NCBI GenBank assembly: GCA_020436165.1
Contig: JAGQYI010000035.1
Span: forward strand, 92,458-156,457
Reading direction: 5' to 3'
DNA from: Cyclobacteriaceae bacterium
Lineage (GTDB): Bacteria; Bacteroidota; Bacteroidia; Cytophagales; Cyclobacteriaceae
Length of the DNA stretch: 64,000 bases
Under the pieces are notes generated by a model, which ran no database searches, was not told the origin of the DNA, and worked only from the letters and a program-made list of their open reading frames with translations. Positions 6,264-64,000 of this stretch are shown here, piece by piece. Position numbers and translations under genes: made by a program. Position 1 is the stretch's first letter. Every line of letters starts with the position of its first letter.

Positions 6264-7253
6264 ATGAGTGATTTTTTTACCGACAGTTTTGGACGGCCAC
6301 TTAACTACCTCCGTTTAGCCGTTACCGATAGATGCAACTTGCGTTGTTTCTATTGCATGCCCGCGGAAGGTATTGATTATGTCGATCGTAAGGATCTGCT
6401 TTCCTATGAGGAAATGCTTCGTCTTACACGCATTTTTGTATCGCTTGGTGTAAATAAAATTCGATTGACAGGCGGAGAACCATTTGTTCGAAGGAATTTT
6501 TATGGTTTTCTGAAACGATTAACCAAAATTGAAGGCTTGGATAAAATTGCTATCACCACCAATGGAGCAGTTGCAAGCAAACATATTCCCTTCTTAAAGG
6601 AAATTGGCATTACTTCCATTAACCTTAGCCTGGATACGCTTAACAAAGACCGTTATACCCAAATTACAAGAAGAGATTTCTTTGACCAGGCCATGGAGAC
6701 CTATCATGCTGTGTTAGCAGCTGGCATTAAGTTGAGTGTTAACATGGTGGTAATGGAAGGTAAAAACATTGAGGATATTGTGCCAATGGCCATGCTGACC
6801 AAGAACGATAATGTAACAGTTCGATTCATTGAAGAAATGCCCTTCAATGGCATTGGAGCTCGTTACACAATAGGTTTTAATCATAAAAAAATTCTAGAAA
6901 CGCTAAAAGAAGATCTTCCTGAACTGGCTCCAATTCCTTTTAAAGATGGAACAACCGCGCAGGAATATACAATTGACGGCTACAAAGGTAAAATAGGAAT
7001 TATAGCTGCTTATACGCGTACTTTCTGCGGGTCATGCAATAGGATACGAGTTACTGCCACAGGTGAAATGAAAAACTGTCTCTACGACCAGGGAGTGCTT
7101 AATCTCAAGCGAATGCTTTCGGATGGCTCATCCGATCAAATGATTTGCGAAGCCATCAAAGCGGGATATAGCAAAAAGCTCAAGGATGGTCGCGAGGCTG
7201 AGGCTGCCCGAATGACATCTGTTTCAGAATCTATGTCGAGTATTGGAGGGTAA
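6264..7253 (+). CDS. moaA: GTP 3',8-cyclase MoaA (molybdenum cofactor biosynthesis)
   Basis: MoaA is a radical-SAM enzyme that converts GTP to 3',8-cyclo-GTP, the first step of molybdopterin synthesis. The 329-residue length is standard. The N-terminal [4Fe-4S] motif CNLRCFYC gives Cys24, Cys28 and Cys31. The C-terminal cluster ligands are Cys255 and Cys258 (FCGSCNRIR) and Cys272 (KNCLYD). The SAM-binding LTGGEPF motif is at 68-74. The protein ends in Gly-Gly, as active MoaA does. No other mo- gene is in the window, so the rest of the pathway must be encoded elsewhere. Confidence 0.95.
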   Translation: MSDFFTDSFGRPLNYLRLAVTDRCNLRCFYCMPAEGIDYVDRKDLLSYEEMLRLTRIFVSLGVNKIRLTGGEPFVRRNFYGFLKRLTKIEGLDKIAITTNGAVASKHIPFLKEIGITSINLSLDTLNKDRYTQITRRDFFDQAMETYHAVLAAGIKLSVNMVVMEGKNIEDIVPMAMLTKNDNVTVRFIEEMPFNGIGARYTIGFNHKKILETLKEDLPELAPIPFKDGTTAQEYTIDGYKGKIGIIAAYTRTFCGSCNRIRVTATGEMKNCLYDQGVLNLKRMLSDGSSDQMICEAIKAGYSKKLKDGREAEAARMTSVSESMSSIGG

Positions 7254-7331
7254 AAATATATTAAATATTTTCTTATTATTTTAATATTTGATTATATATG
7301 CAGTAAGGTATATGATTAAATATAATATAAA

Positions 7332-51206: not shown

Positions 51207-52248
51207 TTTGGAGACTTCAGTAAACTGGTTTTCGCTCCATTGGTTTGAGCCCTCTACCCTTTCGGCTTTTGATTGGGAGAACAGAATTATGCTGCTACTG
51301 GCACTCCTCTTACCAATCGTTTTTATTATTAAGTGGATCGTTAGCAAAAGTGTGGGGCAAAAACTGCCAGTTGCATTACCAAAAGAGCAGATAAAGTGGT
51401 CACCCTTGGTTATGTTAAGGCACTTGCCCGGGTTATTCATGCTCCTGGCCTTGGGATGTATCATTATTGCATTGGCACGACCACAAAAAACCAATGAAAA
51501 GGTGGAGCAGTGGACCGAAGGAATTGATATCATGCTGGTTATTGATATTTCAGAATCTATGCAAATAGAAGACTTCAAGCCCAATCGGTTAGAAGCAGCT
51601 AAAGAAGTAGCTGAGAACTTTATTGGCGGGCGTTTTCAGGACAGAATTGGTATTGTGGTCTTTTCAGGAGATGCCTATTCGCTCTCTCCTTTAACCACAG
51701 ATTACGACTTGCTAAAAGCCCATTTGGAAGATATAGATTTTGACATGATTCAAAACAGGGGAACAGCCATTGGGAGTGCCCTGGCCGTAGCCACTAACCG
51801 CATGCGCGAATCGGAAGCACCTTCTAAAGTAATTATTCTTCTAAGTGATGGAGAGAACACCGCTGGTAATATCGACCCTGTAACAGCAGCAGAGCTGGCA
51901 GATGCTTACAACATAAAGATATACACCATTGCTGTGGGTAAAGAAGGCAGAGTGCCCTTTGGCAAAGATTTTTTTGGTCAGCCAAAGTATATAGAAAACT
52001 CGCTGGACGAAACAACTCTCAGGAAGATCGCTGAAATCGGGCATGGTAAGTTTTTCAGGGTTTCAAATAATCAGGCATTAGAAGAAGTTTTCAAACGTAT
52101 TGATACGTACGAAAAGGCGGAGATCAAAGAAAATCGCTACAAAGACACCAACGATTTTTACCAGGTGTATCTCAAATGGGCCATTTTATTTTTCCTGATC
52201 TGGTTATTACTCAAATCCACCTTTGTTAGCAACGTGCTTCAGGATTAA
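51199..52248 (+). CDS. batA: von Willebrand factor type A domain membrane protein (BatA-like)
   Basis: The 349-residue protein has two N-terminal hydrophobic segments (about 30-48 and 75-92), a vWA domain (about 108-300) with an intact metal-binding DISES motif and later LSDGENTAGN, and a C-terminal transmembrane segment at about 328-345. This is the standard BatA/BatB layout. The expected partners BatB, BatC and BatD are not downstream: yggS follows instead. The family is implicated in aerotolerance and envelope stress in Bacteroides, but the mechanism is not settled. Confidence 0.85.
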   Translation: MDNLETSVNWFSLHWFEPSTLSAFDWENRIMLLLALLLPIVFIIKWIVSKSVGQKLPVALPKEQIKWSPLVMLRHLPGLFMLLALGCIIIALARPQKTNEKVEQWTEGIDIMLVIDISESMQIEDFKPNRLEAAKEVAENFIGGRFQDRIGIVVFSGDAYSLSPLTTDYDLLKAHLEDIDFDMIQNRGTAIGSALAVATNRMRESEAPSKVIILLSDGENTAGNIDPVTAAELADAYNIKIYTIAVGKEGRVPFGKDFFGQPKYIENSLDETTLRKIAEIGHGKFFRVSNNQALEEVFKRIDTYEKAEIKENRYKDTNDFYQVYLKWAILFFLIWLLLKSTFVSNVLQD

Positions 52249-59171: not shown

Positions 59172-59828
59172 ATGCTAACGCATTCAGAAGAAAATTACCT
59201 GAAAACGATCCATCATCTCTCTGAGGAAACGAACAAGTCTGTGAGCACCAACGCTATTGCAGACAAGCTATCAACCAAAGCAGCCTCGGCTACAGATATG
59301 GTCCAGAAACTGGCTGCAAAGGGGTTTGCATCCTACTACAAGTACAAAGGGGTACGATTAACAGATAAGGGCACAAAGGAGGCTCTCAAGGTAGTCAGGA
59401 AACATAGGCTGTGGGAGGTTTTTCTGGTAAAGAAGCTTAATTTCAAATGGGACGAAGTTCATGAAATAGCCGAGCAGTTGGAACACATCAAGTCACCGAT
59501 GCTTATAGAGCGCCTTGATGAACATCTTGGGTTTCCAAAATTTGATCCACACGGTGACCCTATACCCAACAGAGAAGGAATAATGGCAGCAACCAAGCAG
59601 TTGCTCCTTTCAGAATTAGCCATTGGAAACAGTGGTATTATAACGGCTGTTAAAGACGGCAATACAGCGTTTCTTCAATACCTGGAAAAAATCGGGGCCT
59701 TTATAGGGGCTGAGCTACAGGTACTTGACAAAGTAGAATTTGACGATTCGCTGGAAGTTTCAATAAACGGGAAACCAGCTCAATTTATATCAAAAGAAGC
59801 ATCACAGAATATATTAATTACTGAATAG
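59172..59828 (+). CDS. DtxR/MntR-family metal-dependent transcriptional regulator
   Basis: The 218-residue protein has a winged helix (residues 1-65, LTHSEENYLKTIHHLSEE ... STNAIADKLSTKAASATDMVQKLA), a dimerisation and metal-binding domain (about 70-145, with EIAEQLEHIKSPMLIERLDEHLGFPKFDPHGDPIP) and a C-terminal SH3-like/FeoA-type domain (150-215). Metal ligands are expected among Glu and His of the second domain. It senses Mn2+ or Fe2+ and represses uptake when replete. The coupling with an Nramp transporter gene one base downstream favours manganese. An operator-like palindrome lies upstream. Confidence 0.88.
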   Translation: MLTHSEENYLKTIHHLSEETNKSVSTNAIADKLSTKAASATDMVQKLAAKGFASYYKYKGVRLTDKGTKEALKVVRKHRLWEVFLVKKLNFKWDEVHEIAEQLEHIKSPMLIERLDEHLGFPKFDPHGDPIPNREGIMAATKQLLLSELAIGNSGIITAVKDGNTAFLQYLEKIGAFIGAELQVLDKVEFDDSLEVSINGKPAQFISKEASQNILITE

Positions 59829-59829
59829 T

Positions 59830-61698
59830 ATGAATAAATCTCTTTCAGAAGTAAATGAAAGCATTGATACCACTGTCCAAAAAAGTGGGTGGAGAAGGCT
59901 ATTGGCATTTTTAGGCCCTGCCTACCTTATTAGTGTTGGATATATGGACCCAGGTAACTGGGCAACAGATATTGCAGGCGGAAGCCAGTTTGGATACAAA
60001 TTGATTTGGGTTCTGCTAATGTCGAACCTCATGGCATTGTTACTGCAAAGTTTAAGTGCACGCCTAGGTTTGGTTCGTAAAATGGATCTAGCCCAGGCAT
60101 CGAGAGTTACCTATCCTAAAGCAGTCAATTTCTTCCTGTACATACTGGCAGAAATTGCCATTGCTGCCTGCGATCTGGCTGAAGTTCTGGGAATGGCAAT
60201 CGGTCTCCAGTTGCTTTTTGGCCTTCCTTTGCTTTGGGGGGTAAGCATAACGGTTCTTGATACGTTGCTAATACTAGTGCTGCAAGGATACGGAATGCGT
60301 AAAATGGAAGCATTTATACTTGGTATGGTGGCCATAATTGGTGGGGCCTTTTTTGTAGAAATGTTTTTTGCCAAACCTGATATGGGAGAATTGGTTACCG
60401 GATTTATCCCTTCCCTACCCAATAACAAGGCGCTTTATATTGCCATTGGAATAATAGGAGCTACTGTAATGCCCCATAATCTTTACCTGCATTCTTCATT
60501 AGTGCAAACGCGAAGAATTGACAACTCAAACAAAGGACTTTGGCAGGCAATAAAATACAATATCATTGATTCATTTCTTGCGCTTAATATGGCATTTTTT
60601 GTAAATGCTGCTATTCTGGTGCTGGCTGCAGCCACATTCTATAAAATTGGAATGCATCATGTTGAAGAGATACAAGATGCCCACAAATTGCTGGCACCAT
60701 TACTTGGTACCAAGTGGGCTGCTGTTTTGTTTGCAGTGGCTTTAATTGCAGCAGGACAAAGCTCTACAATTACAGGAACATTGGCCGGGCAAATTGTAAT
60801 GGAAGGTTACCTTAACTTACGTATTGCCCCATGGCTCCGCAGGTTGATGACCCGTCTTATTGCCATTATACCAGCCTTTTTGGTTATTCTTTACTTCGGT
60901 GAAAAAGAAACAGGTCCTCTTTTGGTTCTTAGCCAGGTAATTCTCAGCCTTCAATTAGGTTTTGCTATAATTCCCCTTATTCACCTGGTAAGCGACAAGA
61001 AAAAAATGGGTGAATTTGTTATTGGAATCTGGACAAGAATCGGAGCCTGGCTAATAGCACTGATTATTGTTACGCTGAACATAAAATTGGTAATTGACGA
61101 AATTAATGGATGGCTTGCAGCAGCAGGTGAACACAAACTTCTCTTACAACTAACTGTAATACCTGTTGCATGGGCAAGTGGAATATTACTGCTTTATATT
61201 ACATTTAAACCAATAATCAGGAAAGCCAAACACGTTCGTAAGGTACCACATTTAACAGAGCAGCTCATAGAATTCACAGAAGTTCCATCTTTCAAAAAAC
61301 TTGCTATAACCATCGACTTTTCCGATGTGGATGAAAAAGCAATTAATAATGCCTTGAAACAAGGAGGTAAAGGTGCAGAATATACACTCATTCATATTGT
61401 GGAAACAGCTGGCGCGTACATGATGGGCAGTGAAATATCTGATTTTGAGACGAAATCGGACAAGGAGAACCTGGAACACTATGCCGATCAACTTATTTCC
61501 AAAGGCTATAAAGTAAGCACATTAATAGGGCATGGTAATCCTAAGCGCGTAATTCCAAAATTAGTTAACGAAATAAATGCAGACCTTCTTGTAATGGGTG
61601 CTCATGGCCATGGGCTTATCAAAGACCTTGTTTTTGGAACAACCGTAGGAGCCGTTCGGCATAAAGTATCTGTTCCTGTTTTGGTTATCAGTGCATAA
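59830..61698 (+). CDS. mntH: Nramp-family divalent metal transporter fused to a UspA domain
   Basis: The first 470 residues are an Nramp/MntH transporter with about eleven helices. The metal-site motifs are intact: DPGNW at 40-44 in helix one and MPHN (Met214-Pro-His216) in helix six. Residues 488-622 are a universal stress protein domain (FKKLAITIDFSDVDEKAI ... LLVMGAHGHGLIKDLVFGTTVGA), with the GxxGx9GT nucleotide-binding loop. The fusion suggests proton-coupled Mn2+ or Fe2+ uptake gated or sensed by ATP. The gene is cotranscribed with the regulator one base upstream. Confidence 0.9.
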   Translation: MNKSLSEVNESIDTTVQKSGWRRLLAFLGPAYLISVGYMDPGNWATDIAGGSQFGYKLIWVLLMSNLMALLLQSLSARLGLVRKMDLAQASRVTYPKAVNFFLYILAEIAIAACDLAEVLGMAIGLQLLFGLPLLWGVSITVLDTLLILVLQGYGMRKMEAFILGMVAIIGGAFFVEMFFAKPDMGELVTGFIPSLPNNKALYIAIGIIGATVMPHNLYLHSSLVQTRRIDNSNKGLWQAIKYNIIDSFLALNMAFFVNAAILVLAAATFYKIGMHHVEEIQDAHKLLAPLLGTKWAAVLFAVALIAAGQSSTITGTLAGQIVMEGYLNLRIAPWLRRLMTRLIAIIPAFLVILYFGEKETGPLLVLSQVILSLQLGFAIIPLIHLVSDKKKMGEFVIGIWTRIGAWLIALIIVTLNIKLVIDEINGWLAAAGEHKLLLQLTVIPVAWASGILLLYITFKPIIRKAKHVRKVPHLTEQLIEFTEVPSFKKLAITIDFSDVDEKAINNALKQGGKGAEYTLIHIVETAGAYMMGSEISDFETKSDKENLEHYADQLISKGYKVSTLIGHGNPKRVIPKLVNEINADLLVMGAHGHGLIKDLVFGTTVGAVRHKVSVPVLVISA

Positions 61699-61716: not shown

Positions 61717-63087
61717 ATGCACGGCACTGAATTCGATGATACAATTGTTGCATTGGCAACTCCTCAGGGAGTTGGCGCCCTGGCGATTGTTCGTTTAAGT
61801 GGAAATAATGCTATTACTATAGCCAATTCGGTCTTCAAAGGAAGTGATCTTACGCAAGCAAATTCGCATACTTTGCACTTTGGTACCATCAGGGATGGAG
61901 AAAAAGTAATTGATGAAGTGCTGGTATCCGTTTTCAAGGCGCCTAATTCCTTTACCAAGGAGGATTCGATTGAAATTTCGTGTCATGGCTCTATGCTCAT
62001 AGTACAGGAGATCATCAAGCTGTTAATGGAAAAAGGTTCGCGCCTGGCTAAGCCCGGAGAATTTACACAAAGGGCTTTTCTTCATGGAAAATTTGATCTT
62101 GCCCAGGCAGAGGCAGTTGCAGATTTGATCCATGCTGACTCAGAAGCAGCCCGAAAAACAGCCATGGACCAAATGCGCGGTGGCTTTTCAAAAGAAATCG
62201 CTCACCTAAGAGAAGAGCTTATCCATTTTGCGTCCATGATTGAGTTGGAGCTTGATTTTAGTGAAGAAGATGTTGAGTTTGCAGATCGGGCTGCCCTAAA
62301 AACGCTTATCGAAAATCTTCTGATGAAAATAGATGCCCTTATTGGAAGCTTTGATTTGGGTAATGTGATCAAAAATGGAGTACCAACAGTAATTGCAGGT
62401 AAACCCAATGCAGGCAAATCAACTCTGCTCAATGCGTTGCTTAAAGAAGAAAAAGCCATTGTTTCCGAAATTGCAGGCACTACACGCGACACCATTGAAG
62501 ATGAAATTAATTTGGGCGGGGTAACCTTTCGATTTATTGATACGGCAGGCTTGCGCGATACTGTAGACACTATTGAAGCCATTGGAGTGAAGCGTGCCAA
62601 AGAGCAAATGGAGAAAGCCAGCCTTATTCTCTATATGTTTGATGTTTCTACCGAACCTGTGGAAGAAATTAAAAAGACATTGAATTCATTAAAAGAGCAG
62701 CCCATACCCTTCCTGGCAATAGGTAATAAAATGGACCTGGTTGATGAATCAACAAAGAGCCAATTAGAAAACATTCGTATTCATCCTCTCGTTGCCAAAA
62801 CAAGTGAAGGCTTAAAGCAACTGGAAGATGCCATATTAGATAAAGTAAATGCCCGGGAACTGAATACGGGAGACACTGTGGTGACGAACCTGCGCCACCA
62901 TCAGGAACTGATCCTGACTAAAGATTCATTACTAACCGTGATCAAAAGCATAGATTCCGGCATTTCCAATGATTTTGTGGCGCAAGATATACGCCATGCT
63001 CTTCACCACCTTGGATTGATCACAGGCCAGATCACAACGGATGATCTGTTGGAAAACATCTTTTCGAAATTTTGTATCGGGAAGTAA
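61717..63087 (+). CDS. mnmE: tRNA-5-carboxymethylaminomethyl-2-thiouridine GTPase MnmE
   Basis: MnmE works with MnmG to modify U34 of tRNAs. The 456-residue protein has the N-terminal tetrahydrofolate-binding domain (1-118), helical domain (119-215 and C-terminus) and an inserted G domain with GKPNAGKST at 228-236, GTTRDT, DTAGLRD and NKMD motifs. It ends in CIGK, the conserved catalytic-cysteine tail. The last 63 coding bases plus one preceding base (63024-63087) are duplicated 795 bp downstream; the gene itself is intact. Its 3' end is a known island integration site. Confidence 0.97.
   Translation: MHGTEFDDTIVALATPQGVGALAIVRLSGNNAITIANSVFKGSDLTQANSHTLHFGTIRDGEKVIDEVLVSVFKAPNSFTKEDSIEISCHGSMLIVQEIIKLLMEKGSRLAKPGEFTQRAFLHGKFDLAQAEAVADLIHADSEAARKTAMDQMRGGFSKEIAHLREELIHFASMIELELDFSEEDVEFADRAALKTLIENLLMKIDALIGSFDLGNVIKNGVPTVIAGKPNAGKSTLLNALLKEEKAIVSEIAGTTRDTIEDEINLGGVTFRFIDTAGLRDTVDTIEAIGVKRAKEQMEKASLILYMFDVSTEPVEEIKKTLNSLKEQPIPFLAIGNKMDLVDESTKSQLENIRIHPLVAKTSEGLKQLEDAILDKVNARELNTGDTVVTNLRHHQELILTKDSLLTVIKSIDSGISNDFVAQDIRHALHHLGLITGQITTDDLLENIFSKFCIGK
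63024..63087 (+). repeat. mnmE 3'-end direct repeat, copy 1 (in gene)
   Basis: The 64 bases ending at the mnmE stop recur at 63819-63882. The first 45 bases match exactly. Only three bases differ, at 63069, 63078 and 63081, and each is a synonymous third-position change (AAA/AAG, ATC/ATT, GGG/GGA). The last 18 bases correspond to the trmE/mnmE attachment site of SGI1-type islands. Confidence 0.9.
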
Positions 63088-63108
63088 GTGTTCCTCCTAA
63101 AGAAATTA

Positions 63109-63750
63109 TCAAAAACTTAATCCGAATCCTACATAGGCTAATTCCGGAACGCCTACACCAATTCTAAATATCCCGCCAGTAGATTTCTGGTATCTATATC
63201 CAATAGAGCCTGAAACAAAATAGGGGTTATCTCCTTCTGAAGTTTCAACTGTGTACATACCTCCAATTCCTAGCTCAAAGTGTGATGCTTTTCCCCCAAA
63301 TAATGCACCCAACTGAAGTATGCAACGGTGCCAATTGGTGTCATTAGCCGGATAATGATCAAACTCATAGCCCGCCCTTACAAATGCACTTGGAAAATTT
63401 GACTTGATCATTCGTTCATAGTAGATGCTCTTAGTTGTACCTAGCATTGGTAATCCTCCAATGTTACCAAATATTGCATTCTGTCGTACTTTCGAGTTAT
63501 ATCGATTACGTTGTCTATTATCCAAATGATGAATGAAAGAAGCATCTTGTTGGGGTCCAAAATTTGATATTTCGGAATGATCAACCGTTTCAAAAATTTT
63601 TATTAAAATACTGTCCTCACAAATAATTAAAGTTGGCTTTTGGGTTTCTTTAAAACCTGGCTCTACTTGTACATTTTGAGCTAACTGAAATGCTATACAG
63701 CTTTGAAGAAGTAAAATAGCTAAAAGAAAAGTTGAAATAAACCTTTTCAT
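63109..63750 (-). CDS. secreted protein of unknown function, sole gene between mnmE tail repeats
   Basis: The 213-residue protein has a Sec or lipoprotein signal (LLLQSC at about 13-18). The mature part includes CEDSILIKIFETVDHSEISNF and, from about residue 100, strand patterns with aromatic ends (SAFVRAGYEFDHYP, ILQLGALFGG, GGMYTV, VSGSIGYRYQKSTGGIFRIGVG, YVGFGLSF), ending in Phe like an outer-membrane beta-barrel. No family is named. It is transcribed against mnmE and is the only gene inside the 795-bp unit bounded by the two mnmE tail copies, so it is probably cargo. Confidence 0.6.
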   Translation of the reverse strand: MKRFISTFLLAILLLQSCIAFQLAQNVQVEPGFKETQKPTLIICEDSILIKIFETVDHSEISNFGPQQDASFIHHLDNRQRNRYNSKVRQNAIFGNIGGLPMLGTTKSIYYERMIKSNFPSAFVRAGYEFDHYPANDTNWHRCILQLGALFGGKASHFELGIGGMYTVETSEGDNPYFVSGSIGYRYQKSTGGIFRIGVGVPELAYVGFGLSF

Positions 63751-63798
63751 ACATTCGTTTTGGCATCATTAATTTACTTAATACTAAGAGACATTCCT

Positions 63799-63882
63799 AT
63801 GATAAATGTCAGAGCTCAAGGCCAGATCACAACGGATGATCTGTTGGAAAACATCTTTTCGAAGTTTTGTATTGGAAAGTAA
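63799..63882 (+). pseudogene. duplicated mnmE 3'-end fragment (att-like site), copy 2
   Basis: Bases 63819-63882 repeat the end of mnmE with three synonymous differences and still end in TAA after CIGK. By chance or design an in-frame ATG at 63799 gives a 27-codon frame whose last 20 residues equal the MnmE C-terminus. It lacks any functional domain and is read as a displaced mnmE end or attachment-site copy, not as a working gene. Confidence 0.8.
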
Positions 63883-63946
63883 TTACTTTTCTTTTACTTA
63901 GCTAAACCCTTCTTTTAGTGCATTTTAAGCGGTTTTTACTTCTTTT

Positions 63947-64000
63947 ATTTGTTGCTAATCTTCCCTTATTTTCGTATATTTCGTTTCTAATTTGTTGCTA
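63947..64000 (+). repeat. pair of 11-base direct repeats beside the second mnmE tail
   Basis: ATTTGTTGCTA occurs at 63947-63957 and at 63990-64000, 43 bases apart in AT-rich DNA without an open frame. Paired short repeats next to an attachment core are what arm-type integrase sites look like, but the role is inferred and the right edge of the window cuts the region off. Confidence 0.45.

Follow-up and report, generated by a model that had tools for sequence, protein, structure and literature searches.

The two copies of the mnmE 3' end near the close of the analysed DNA probably record that foreign DNA has inserted at this gene end in two or more separate events; integrase genes of one family adjoin the site in many genomes of Bacteroidota. 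The window, that is, the whole analysed stretch of 64,000 nucleotides, comprises positions 92458-156457 of contig C2 in the G000 assembly of 87 contigs, and its position 64000 is the final base of that contig. The features discussed below are collected in Table 1.

Table 1. Coordinates of mnmE, its two tails and the adjoining elements in the window
Feature	Position	Strand	Evidence or property
mnmE (tRNA modification GTPase), 456 aa	61717..63087	+	ORF; Pfam TrmE_N, MnmE_helical and MMR_HSR1 above cut-offs
Tail 1, working mnmE 3' end	63024..63087	+	64-nt direct repeat
Last 18 bp of mnmE (FCIGK stop), holding the core common to the island ends of relatives	63070..63087	+	attL/attR pairs of relatives
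Integrase-less unit between the tails, 731 bp	63088..63818	.	G+C 0.357
Orphan cargo gene, 213 aa	63109..63750	-	Sole ORF of at least 60 aa between the tails
Tail 2, mnmE 3' end in displaced position; attL of an integrase island (likely)	63819..63882	+	Repeat; island match of the flank
Stretch with all three tail differences	63864..63882	+	Comparison with tail 1 and with the junctions of relatives
Likely left end of an integrase island that the contig end truncates	63883..64000	+	118/118 identical to the DNA after mnmE of G105
ATTTGTTGCTA, direct repeat copy 1	63947..63957	+	Repeat search
ATTTGTTGCTA, direct repeat copy 2	63990..64000	+	Repeat search

The mnmE gene of the window is complete and ordinary. 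A repeat search of the window revealed its last 64 nt a second time at a spacing of 795 and with 95% identity, 61 of the 64 bases agreeing and the first 45 being identical throughout. Mismatches were confined to 63069/63864 (A/G), 63078/63873 (C/T) and 63081/63876 (G/A). All of them are synonymous, and both tails translate to GQITTDDLLENIFSKFCIGK*. A preceding sequence-only reading of this DNA had given the same repeat coordinates, the same 45 identical bases and the same three synonymous differences, all of which were borne out by the recomputed alignment. On the plus strand of the window, the runner-up ungapped match to the 64-mer covered only 33 of 64 bases, so that the repeat lies far beyond chance. 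Elsewhere in the window, positions 59172-61698 carry an ORF for a DtxR-like regulator followed by one for a 622-aa Nramp-type transporter which, judged by eye, is seemingly fused to a universal-stress domain.

The DNA behind tail 2 has close counterparts in other genomes. In G105, a member of another genus of the Cyclobacteriaceae, all 118 bases between tail 2 and the contig end recur directly after mnmE, and 116 of the 118 are identical in G149; 300 shuffled flanks, run over the compared loci, reached a best value of 61 against 118 in G105. In G306, which belongs to the same family, the flank of tail 2 aligned directly after mnmE with a score of 124, the maximum of 500 shuffles being 35, while the flank of tail 1 scored 15 against the same island start. 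The DNA directly downstream of mnmE in G105 is an island of about 32 kb, predicted to be mobile, which encodes a tyrosine integrase with the domains Arm-DNA-bind_5, Phage_int_SAM_5 and Phage_integrase, all above the Pfam cut-off. In genomes with a left end of the tail 2 type, the integrase gene lies 596 bp beyond the mnmE match. Tail 2 therefore likely represents the attL of an island with an integrase, truncated by the contig end, its flank being completely identical and the final ~15-18 bp of mnmE being common to the island ends of relatives. Repeats similar to ATTTGTTGCTA are present in many related island ends, and the two copies in the window are possible arm-binding sites of the integrase. 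The G000 assembly yielded neither a right end of the G105 type nor a close integrase elsewhere, the best of four matches by E-value having 28% identity.

Complete islands could be delimited in the relatives. Seven of eight genomes assembled from neighbouring stretches showed the core at both island ends, the second core, of the form TGYATYGGRAARTAR, lying 19.6 to 43.3 kb downstream; the islands thus measure 19.6-43.3 kb. In the eighth genome, G149, the contig is too short for a right end, and in G105, where an extra pattern match occurred at 56.5 kb of the stretch, the nearer one was used. A TAACTAnnTGATA motif ahead of the right core is common to G105, G092, G332, G211 and G306; another sequence, shared by G130 and G366, takes this place in those two genomes. 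Six more genomes, five of them with an integrase spacing of ~170 bp, were scanned for a right core, which was found in G336 at 22.7 kb and in G268 at 25.7 kb; that scan returned none for the other four. The left and right cores of G306, TTTTGCATCGGAAAGTAA and TATTGCATCGGGAAGTAA, point to an exchange within the last ~16 bp of mnmE. Tandem islands were observed in G268 (L305/L306) and G273 (L308/L309), with a second integrase 20-26 kb downstream on the same strand and, in each case, behind a displaced mnmE core.

Ten ORFs of the G105 island were scanned with Pfam and revealed the integrase, Piwi, DUF3987, PriCT_2, BT4734-like, HTH_17 and DUF families, with HTH_17 in three proteins; no relaxase was seen among these ten. 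The Piwi domain belongs to a prokaryotic Argonaute at ~8.3-10.3 kb of the oriented stretch (L258-L259; PADLOC pAgo, 2e-273), which is accompanied by a small HTH-like gene. Metal-efflux genes were recognized by eye from the translations of this island, as was a gene on the G306 island resembling the G105 Argonaute. A prophage origin was considered and rejected, the integrase having no relative among 22 pattern-matching stretches of viral_contigs; an exact match to 53 bp of the island left end was likewise absent from viral_contigs. A plasmid search with the integrase gave 19 records at E ≤ 1e-40, every one below 60% identity and the best listed at 41.9%.

For SGI1-type islands of Gammaproteobacteria, the last 18 bp of trmE/mnmE are described as the target (PMC9035990, PMC8409611), and tandem arrays at this site, called a 'known hot spot', are reported (PMC9035990, PMC8409611, PMC6531882). 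The sequence-only reading had likened the repeat to islands with this target, and the comparison gained support from the island ends of the relatives, which have the last ~15-18 bp of mnmE in common. Judged by tail 2 and by the attL/attR pairs of the relatives, elements enter the final 18 bp of the gene as SGI1 does; target gene, its last ~18 bp, a tyrosine integrase and stacking are all shared. SGI1 has its hosts among Gammaproteobacteria, whereas the present host belongs to Bacteroidota, and in contrast to the SGI1 type the islands described here add small integrase-less units between the tails. SGI1 backbone genes such as mpsA, mpsB, traG and sgaC were not named among the ten Pfam-scanned ORFs of the G105 island, whose other ORFs were read by eye. 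Members of the SGI1 family are mobilised by IncA/IncC plasmids. Composite stacks that combine elements carrying recombinase genes with elements lacking them, between repeats of a gene end, are also known from SCC-type arrays at the rlmH 3' end, which differ from the mnmE islands in their serine recombinases and in the gene used. Integrase islands occur in Bacteroidota too, but at other target genes: PvCTn integrates at ppdK (PMC11005914) and the Riemerella 10K island at tRNA-Arg (PMC6764341), both with a site-specific integrase and a fixed attB. A text search met no mention of mnmE in the former paper and none of trmE in the latter.

The three differences between the tails are confined to their final 19 bases, in which the islands of relatives meet mnmE. 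At 63876, tail 2 reads GGAAAG as at the G105 junction, and tail 1 GGGAAG. The form GGAAAG also occurs in 20 of 28 listed island-bearing mnmE ends, while GGGAAG stands in G149, whose island is almost identical to that of G105. Position 63873 is a T in tail 2 and a C in tail 1, G105 and G149, and 63864 lies one base beyond the last 18 bp. The island arm was therefore rejected as the origin of all three differences, as it accounts for 63876 alone. At 63873 and 63864, one of the tail ends may thus have come from another mnmE lineage, as the sequence-only reading had suggested; the base at 63876 is that of the G105 junction. Had the island inserted first and the unit followed, bringing an mnmE tail of its own, the three could be understood as allele differences and no extra mutation would be needed; insertion of the unit before the island would require at least one mutation.

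The unit between the tails has a G+C content below that of mnmE (0.426), but its composition is not distinctive, since 16% of the 731-bp stretches of the window are equally low. No recombinase is encoded in the 795-bp unit. The start of the cargo protein looks, by eye, like that of a signal peptide or lipoprotein. With the whole protein, no Pfam family was found up to E = 5 and no PADLOC family was obtained; a search against 5.77 billion proteins returned only the protein itself. Weak matches occurred in five of 38 other genomes searched, the best covering 64 residues in the C-terminal part of a G028 protein (5.1e-7). The 795-bp unit is likely a separate, integrase-less insertion. The attachment-site duplication proposed from the sequence is supported by the flank of tail 2, with which, in relatives, an island encoding a tyrosine integrase begins. 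The 795-bp unit itself, whose flanks are unlike those of integrase islands, may have moved by site-specific recombination or otherwise. We consider it improbable that the unit is what remained of a larger island after an internal deletion had removed the integrase. Such an origin would suit the site and family that integrase islands and integrase-less units have in common, as well as the tandem islands of relatives. It is disfavoured by the edges of the unit, which do not resemble island ends: the left one is unlike the island left end by the alignment scores given above, and the right one consists of 45 identical mnmE bases where an island right arm would be expected.

Units bounded by mnmE tails were also present in relatives. 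Among 390 genomes of the family, 28 had at least two matches to the mnmE tail (E ≤ 0.01), the extra tail being located on the mnmE contig in 16 of them and on another contig in 12; G269, one of these 12, has two long mnmE frames. The order of tail, unit and tail was found in the single-contig genomes G156, G187 and G221 as well. That the mnmE end was simply duplicated in place, or that the metagenome assembly contains a misjoin here, is on these grounds very improbable. The assembly does consist of 87 contigs, the contig stops 118 bp beyond tail 2, and an exact repeat of 45 bp might lead to a wrong path in assembly, as with a separate 795-bp circle. However, the DNA ahead of tail 2, on the side of the unit, is unrelated to mnmE, so that some read should link unit and tail, and the layout recurs in relatives including the three single-contig genomes.

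G004, which belongs to the genus of the window, has two further tails behind mnmE (L039:2596-7038), and the ~45 bp upstream of the displaced tails are alike in both and unlike mnmE. The first unit of this genome encodes an ATPase assigned to the PADLOC family PDC-S27 (4.5e-198), a candidate defence protein, and the second a HicA toxin together with an HTH gene; HipA/HTH genes lie beyond the last tail. G004 is the sole other genome of the genus with a matched mnmE end, and its downstream DNA differs from that of the window. No mnmE tail was obtained from G001-G003, and an empty site within the genus was not found. Close relatives all carrying the same tails and cargo had been named in the sequence-only reading as evidence that would count against a mobile unit; G004 instead differs at this place, and the cargo protein has no second bearer in the protein search.

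Genes in other units encode a YafQ toxin (G005), an FGGY sugar kinase (G198), a TIR protein (G289) and an alpha/beta hydrolase (G205). In G119 (L096; oriented 1733-2400 and 6682-7303), a similar minus-strand gene follows both tails and the 15 bases after the stop are identical; the block of tail and gene is duplicated in this genome. An insertion of 13,563 bp separates mnmE from the displaced tail in G187. In G261, which belongs to the genus of G187 and is free of the insertion, the DNA found past the displaced tail of G187 follows mnmE from base 2 and so represents the empty site. Homologous DNA begins 130 and 172 bp after mnmE in G082 and G207, respectively, matching ~0.8 kb beyond the displaced tail of G187. 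One gene pair adjoins mnmE in G205 and lies ~4 kb further out in G299, positions that fit the entry of new DNA beside mnmE; a loss in G205 would look alike.

Local alignment of 21 displaced tails with the mnmE of their own genome gave starts at -54 to -69 from the stop in seven cases and at -120 to -472 in ten; two further tails started at -84 and -86 and one at -42, and one aligned another stretch. The averaged identity of the displaced tails climbs at about -66, and several of them retain decayed mnmE sequence upstream of a better-kept end. The idea that every integrase-less unit used one crossover zone near -57 was rejected, as a recount placed only 7 of the 21 there. The varying starts suggest that the integrase-less units are a mixed set. 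Homologous recombination of a circle or fragment bearing an mnmE tail and a gene, with no site-specific enzyme involved, is a possible origin of the 795-bp unit, to which we give some weight but not our preference. The displaced tails span ~40 to 470 nt, 14 of the 21 starting outside -54 to -69, and variable length is expected if the available homology sets it. The unit's want of a recombinase gene agrees with this route, as does cargo that is often ordinary (the sugar kinase and the hydrolase named above and, by eye, signalling genes). Free homologous recombination does not, however, predict the clustering of seven starts at -54 to -69, which involves six genomes besides that of the window, nor the rise of identity at about -66.

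A third core was encountered on another contig of the same assembly. Positions 51233-51250 of G000 contig C55 (L145) contain the last 17 bases of the mnmE end of tail 1, with one mismatch in the 18-base pattern. This core is situated ~1.25 kb from the contig end and is preceded by a 62-aa ORF and TTGTTGCCCA repeats; the arm-like stretch with these repeats matches the end of the G335 island over 23 bp. At up to two mismatches the core pattern gave 26 matches against 13 for the control, and a looser pattern at up to one mismatch gave 11 against 1. By its sequence, this host-type core at an element-like end is a probable further attachment scar of G000. Its identification as the right end of the island at tail 2 was rejected, as 1.5 kb at this end of C55 were without a blastn match to G105 or seven other islands. 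Shared neighbours provided no link between C55 and mnmE: tblastn at 1e-8 gave one cytochrome-like protein outside C55, found with 34-39% identity at three places, all inside islands. Membership of the window's unit in an array, which the sequence-only reading had raised, is strengthened by the island left end at tail 2 and by this probable third core in G000.

The distribution of the integrase was assessed with the G306 protein as query in a sample of 390 Cyclobacteriaceae genomes. Relatives at E ≤ 1e-60 were present in 82 genomes at 87 places, and at 76 of these the integrase gene lies 163-3559 bp downstream of the mnmE 3' end on the same strand. The presence of mnmE was checked on DNA sequence at 63 places and by coordinates at 24. 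It adjoined the integrase in 30 of 30 cases for L148-L177 (L148 via the core at its contig start, the other 29 via mnmE itself), in 22 of 33 for L296-L328 and in all 24 of the coordinate set. Among the 11 misses, L306, L309 and L326 follow a displaced mnmE core, L318 follows an mnmE tail at the contig start, L328 has only 295 bp of contig ahead, and six lie elsewhere. Integrase proteins of nine genomes from several genera are 99.7-100% identical. The mnmE end of G213 (L158, L329) matches the MnmE of the window over residues 327-456 only, with 41.5% identity, and this mnmE is possibly altered; its integrase, counted among the 76, is 98.6% identical to that of G306.

An order-level sample gave an integrase match in 55 of 390 genomes, 38 of them outside the Cyclobacteriaceae. 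Eighteen places from those 38 genomes were returned as loci and checked, and 16 adjoin mnmE. L358 has ~0.6 kb of contig ahead of the integrase gene and an mnmE-like core at the contig start; at L367, no mnmE was seen in the ~1.5 kb ahead of the integrase. The same integrase family was encoded directly downstream in 21 of the 80 named mnmE loci of Bacteroidota that were best by mnmE similarity, with representatives in Sporocytophaga, Pontibacter, Fulvivirga, Sphingobacterium, Pedobacter, Mucilaginibacter, Aquimarina, Winogradskyella, Myroides, Flavobacterium and one Saprospiraceae genome. These best 80 comprise no record of Bacteroidales or Bacteroides; L180 represents a short fragment, L182 runs into a contig end, and the closest named locus is a Cyclobacteriaceae MAG with 77% identity. 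When tblastn was applied to the 80 loci (the best two matches at most per locus, E ≤ 1e-10), every match lay on the downstream side of mnmE, the upstream flank giving none. These position counts show the mnmE 3' end to be a putative island hot spot in several orders of Bacteroidota. The literature searched, which was mostly open-access and without preprints, offered trmE islands of Gammaproteobacteria and islands of Bacteroidota at other sites; no title or abstract opening among the papers listed described an mnmE site in Bacteroidota.

At such a site, the integrase would recombine a circular island with a core in the last bases of mnmE. The island arm would supply new final bases, leaving MnmE intact, and the old end would be displaced to the far side. 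Each insertion would thus leave a fresh or displaced core that could be used again, and elements would stack. Among these, the 795-bp unit would represent a small insertion lacking an integrase, acquired either by homologous recombination or with the help of a trans-acting integrase. Entry of the island first, followed by the unit bringing its own mnmE tail, is one possible order of insertions. A more far-reaching proposal, which we hold to be rather unlikely, is that the mnmE end of Bacteroidota serves as a cassette dock, where tail-ended, integrase-less units are stacked by trans-acting integrases with the newest next to the gene.

The integrase family is carried by about one fifth of the sampled family genomes (82 of 390), indicating a heavily used docking site. 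Since the ends of the islands are defined, a rule can be given by which to find them. In another phylum, SGI1-type islands are reported to target this gene end as well, and the question of why mnmE is favoured becomes directly testable. The stacks carry defence-like cargo, namely a prokaryotic Argonaute, the PDC-S27 candidate and toxin-antitoxin genes. If the cassette dock existed, a conserved host gene would have its final codons exchanged and its tail would act as a recombination site, and defence, toxin-antitoxin and metabolic genes would be carried much as they are by integron cassettes.
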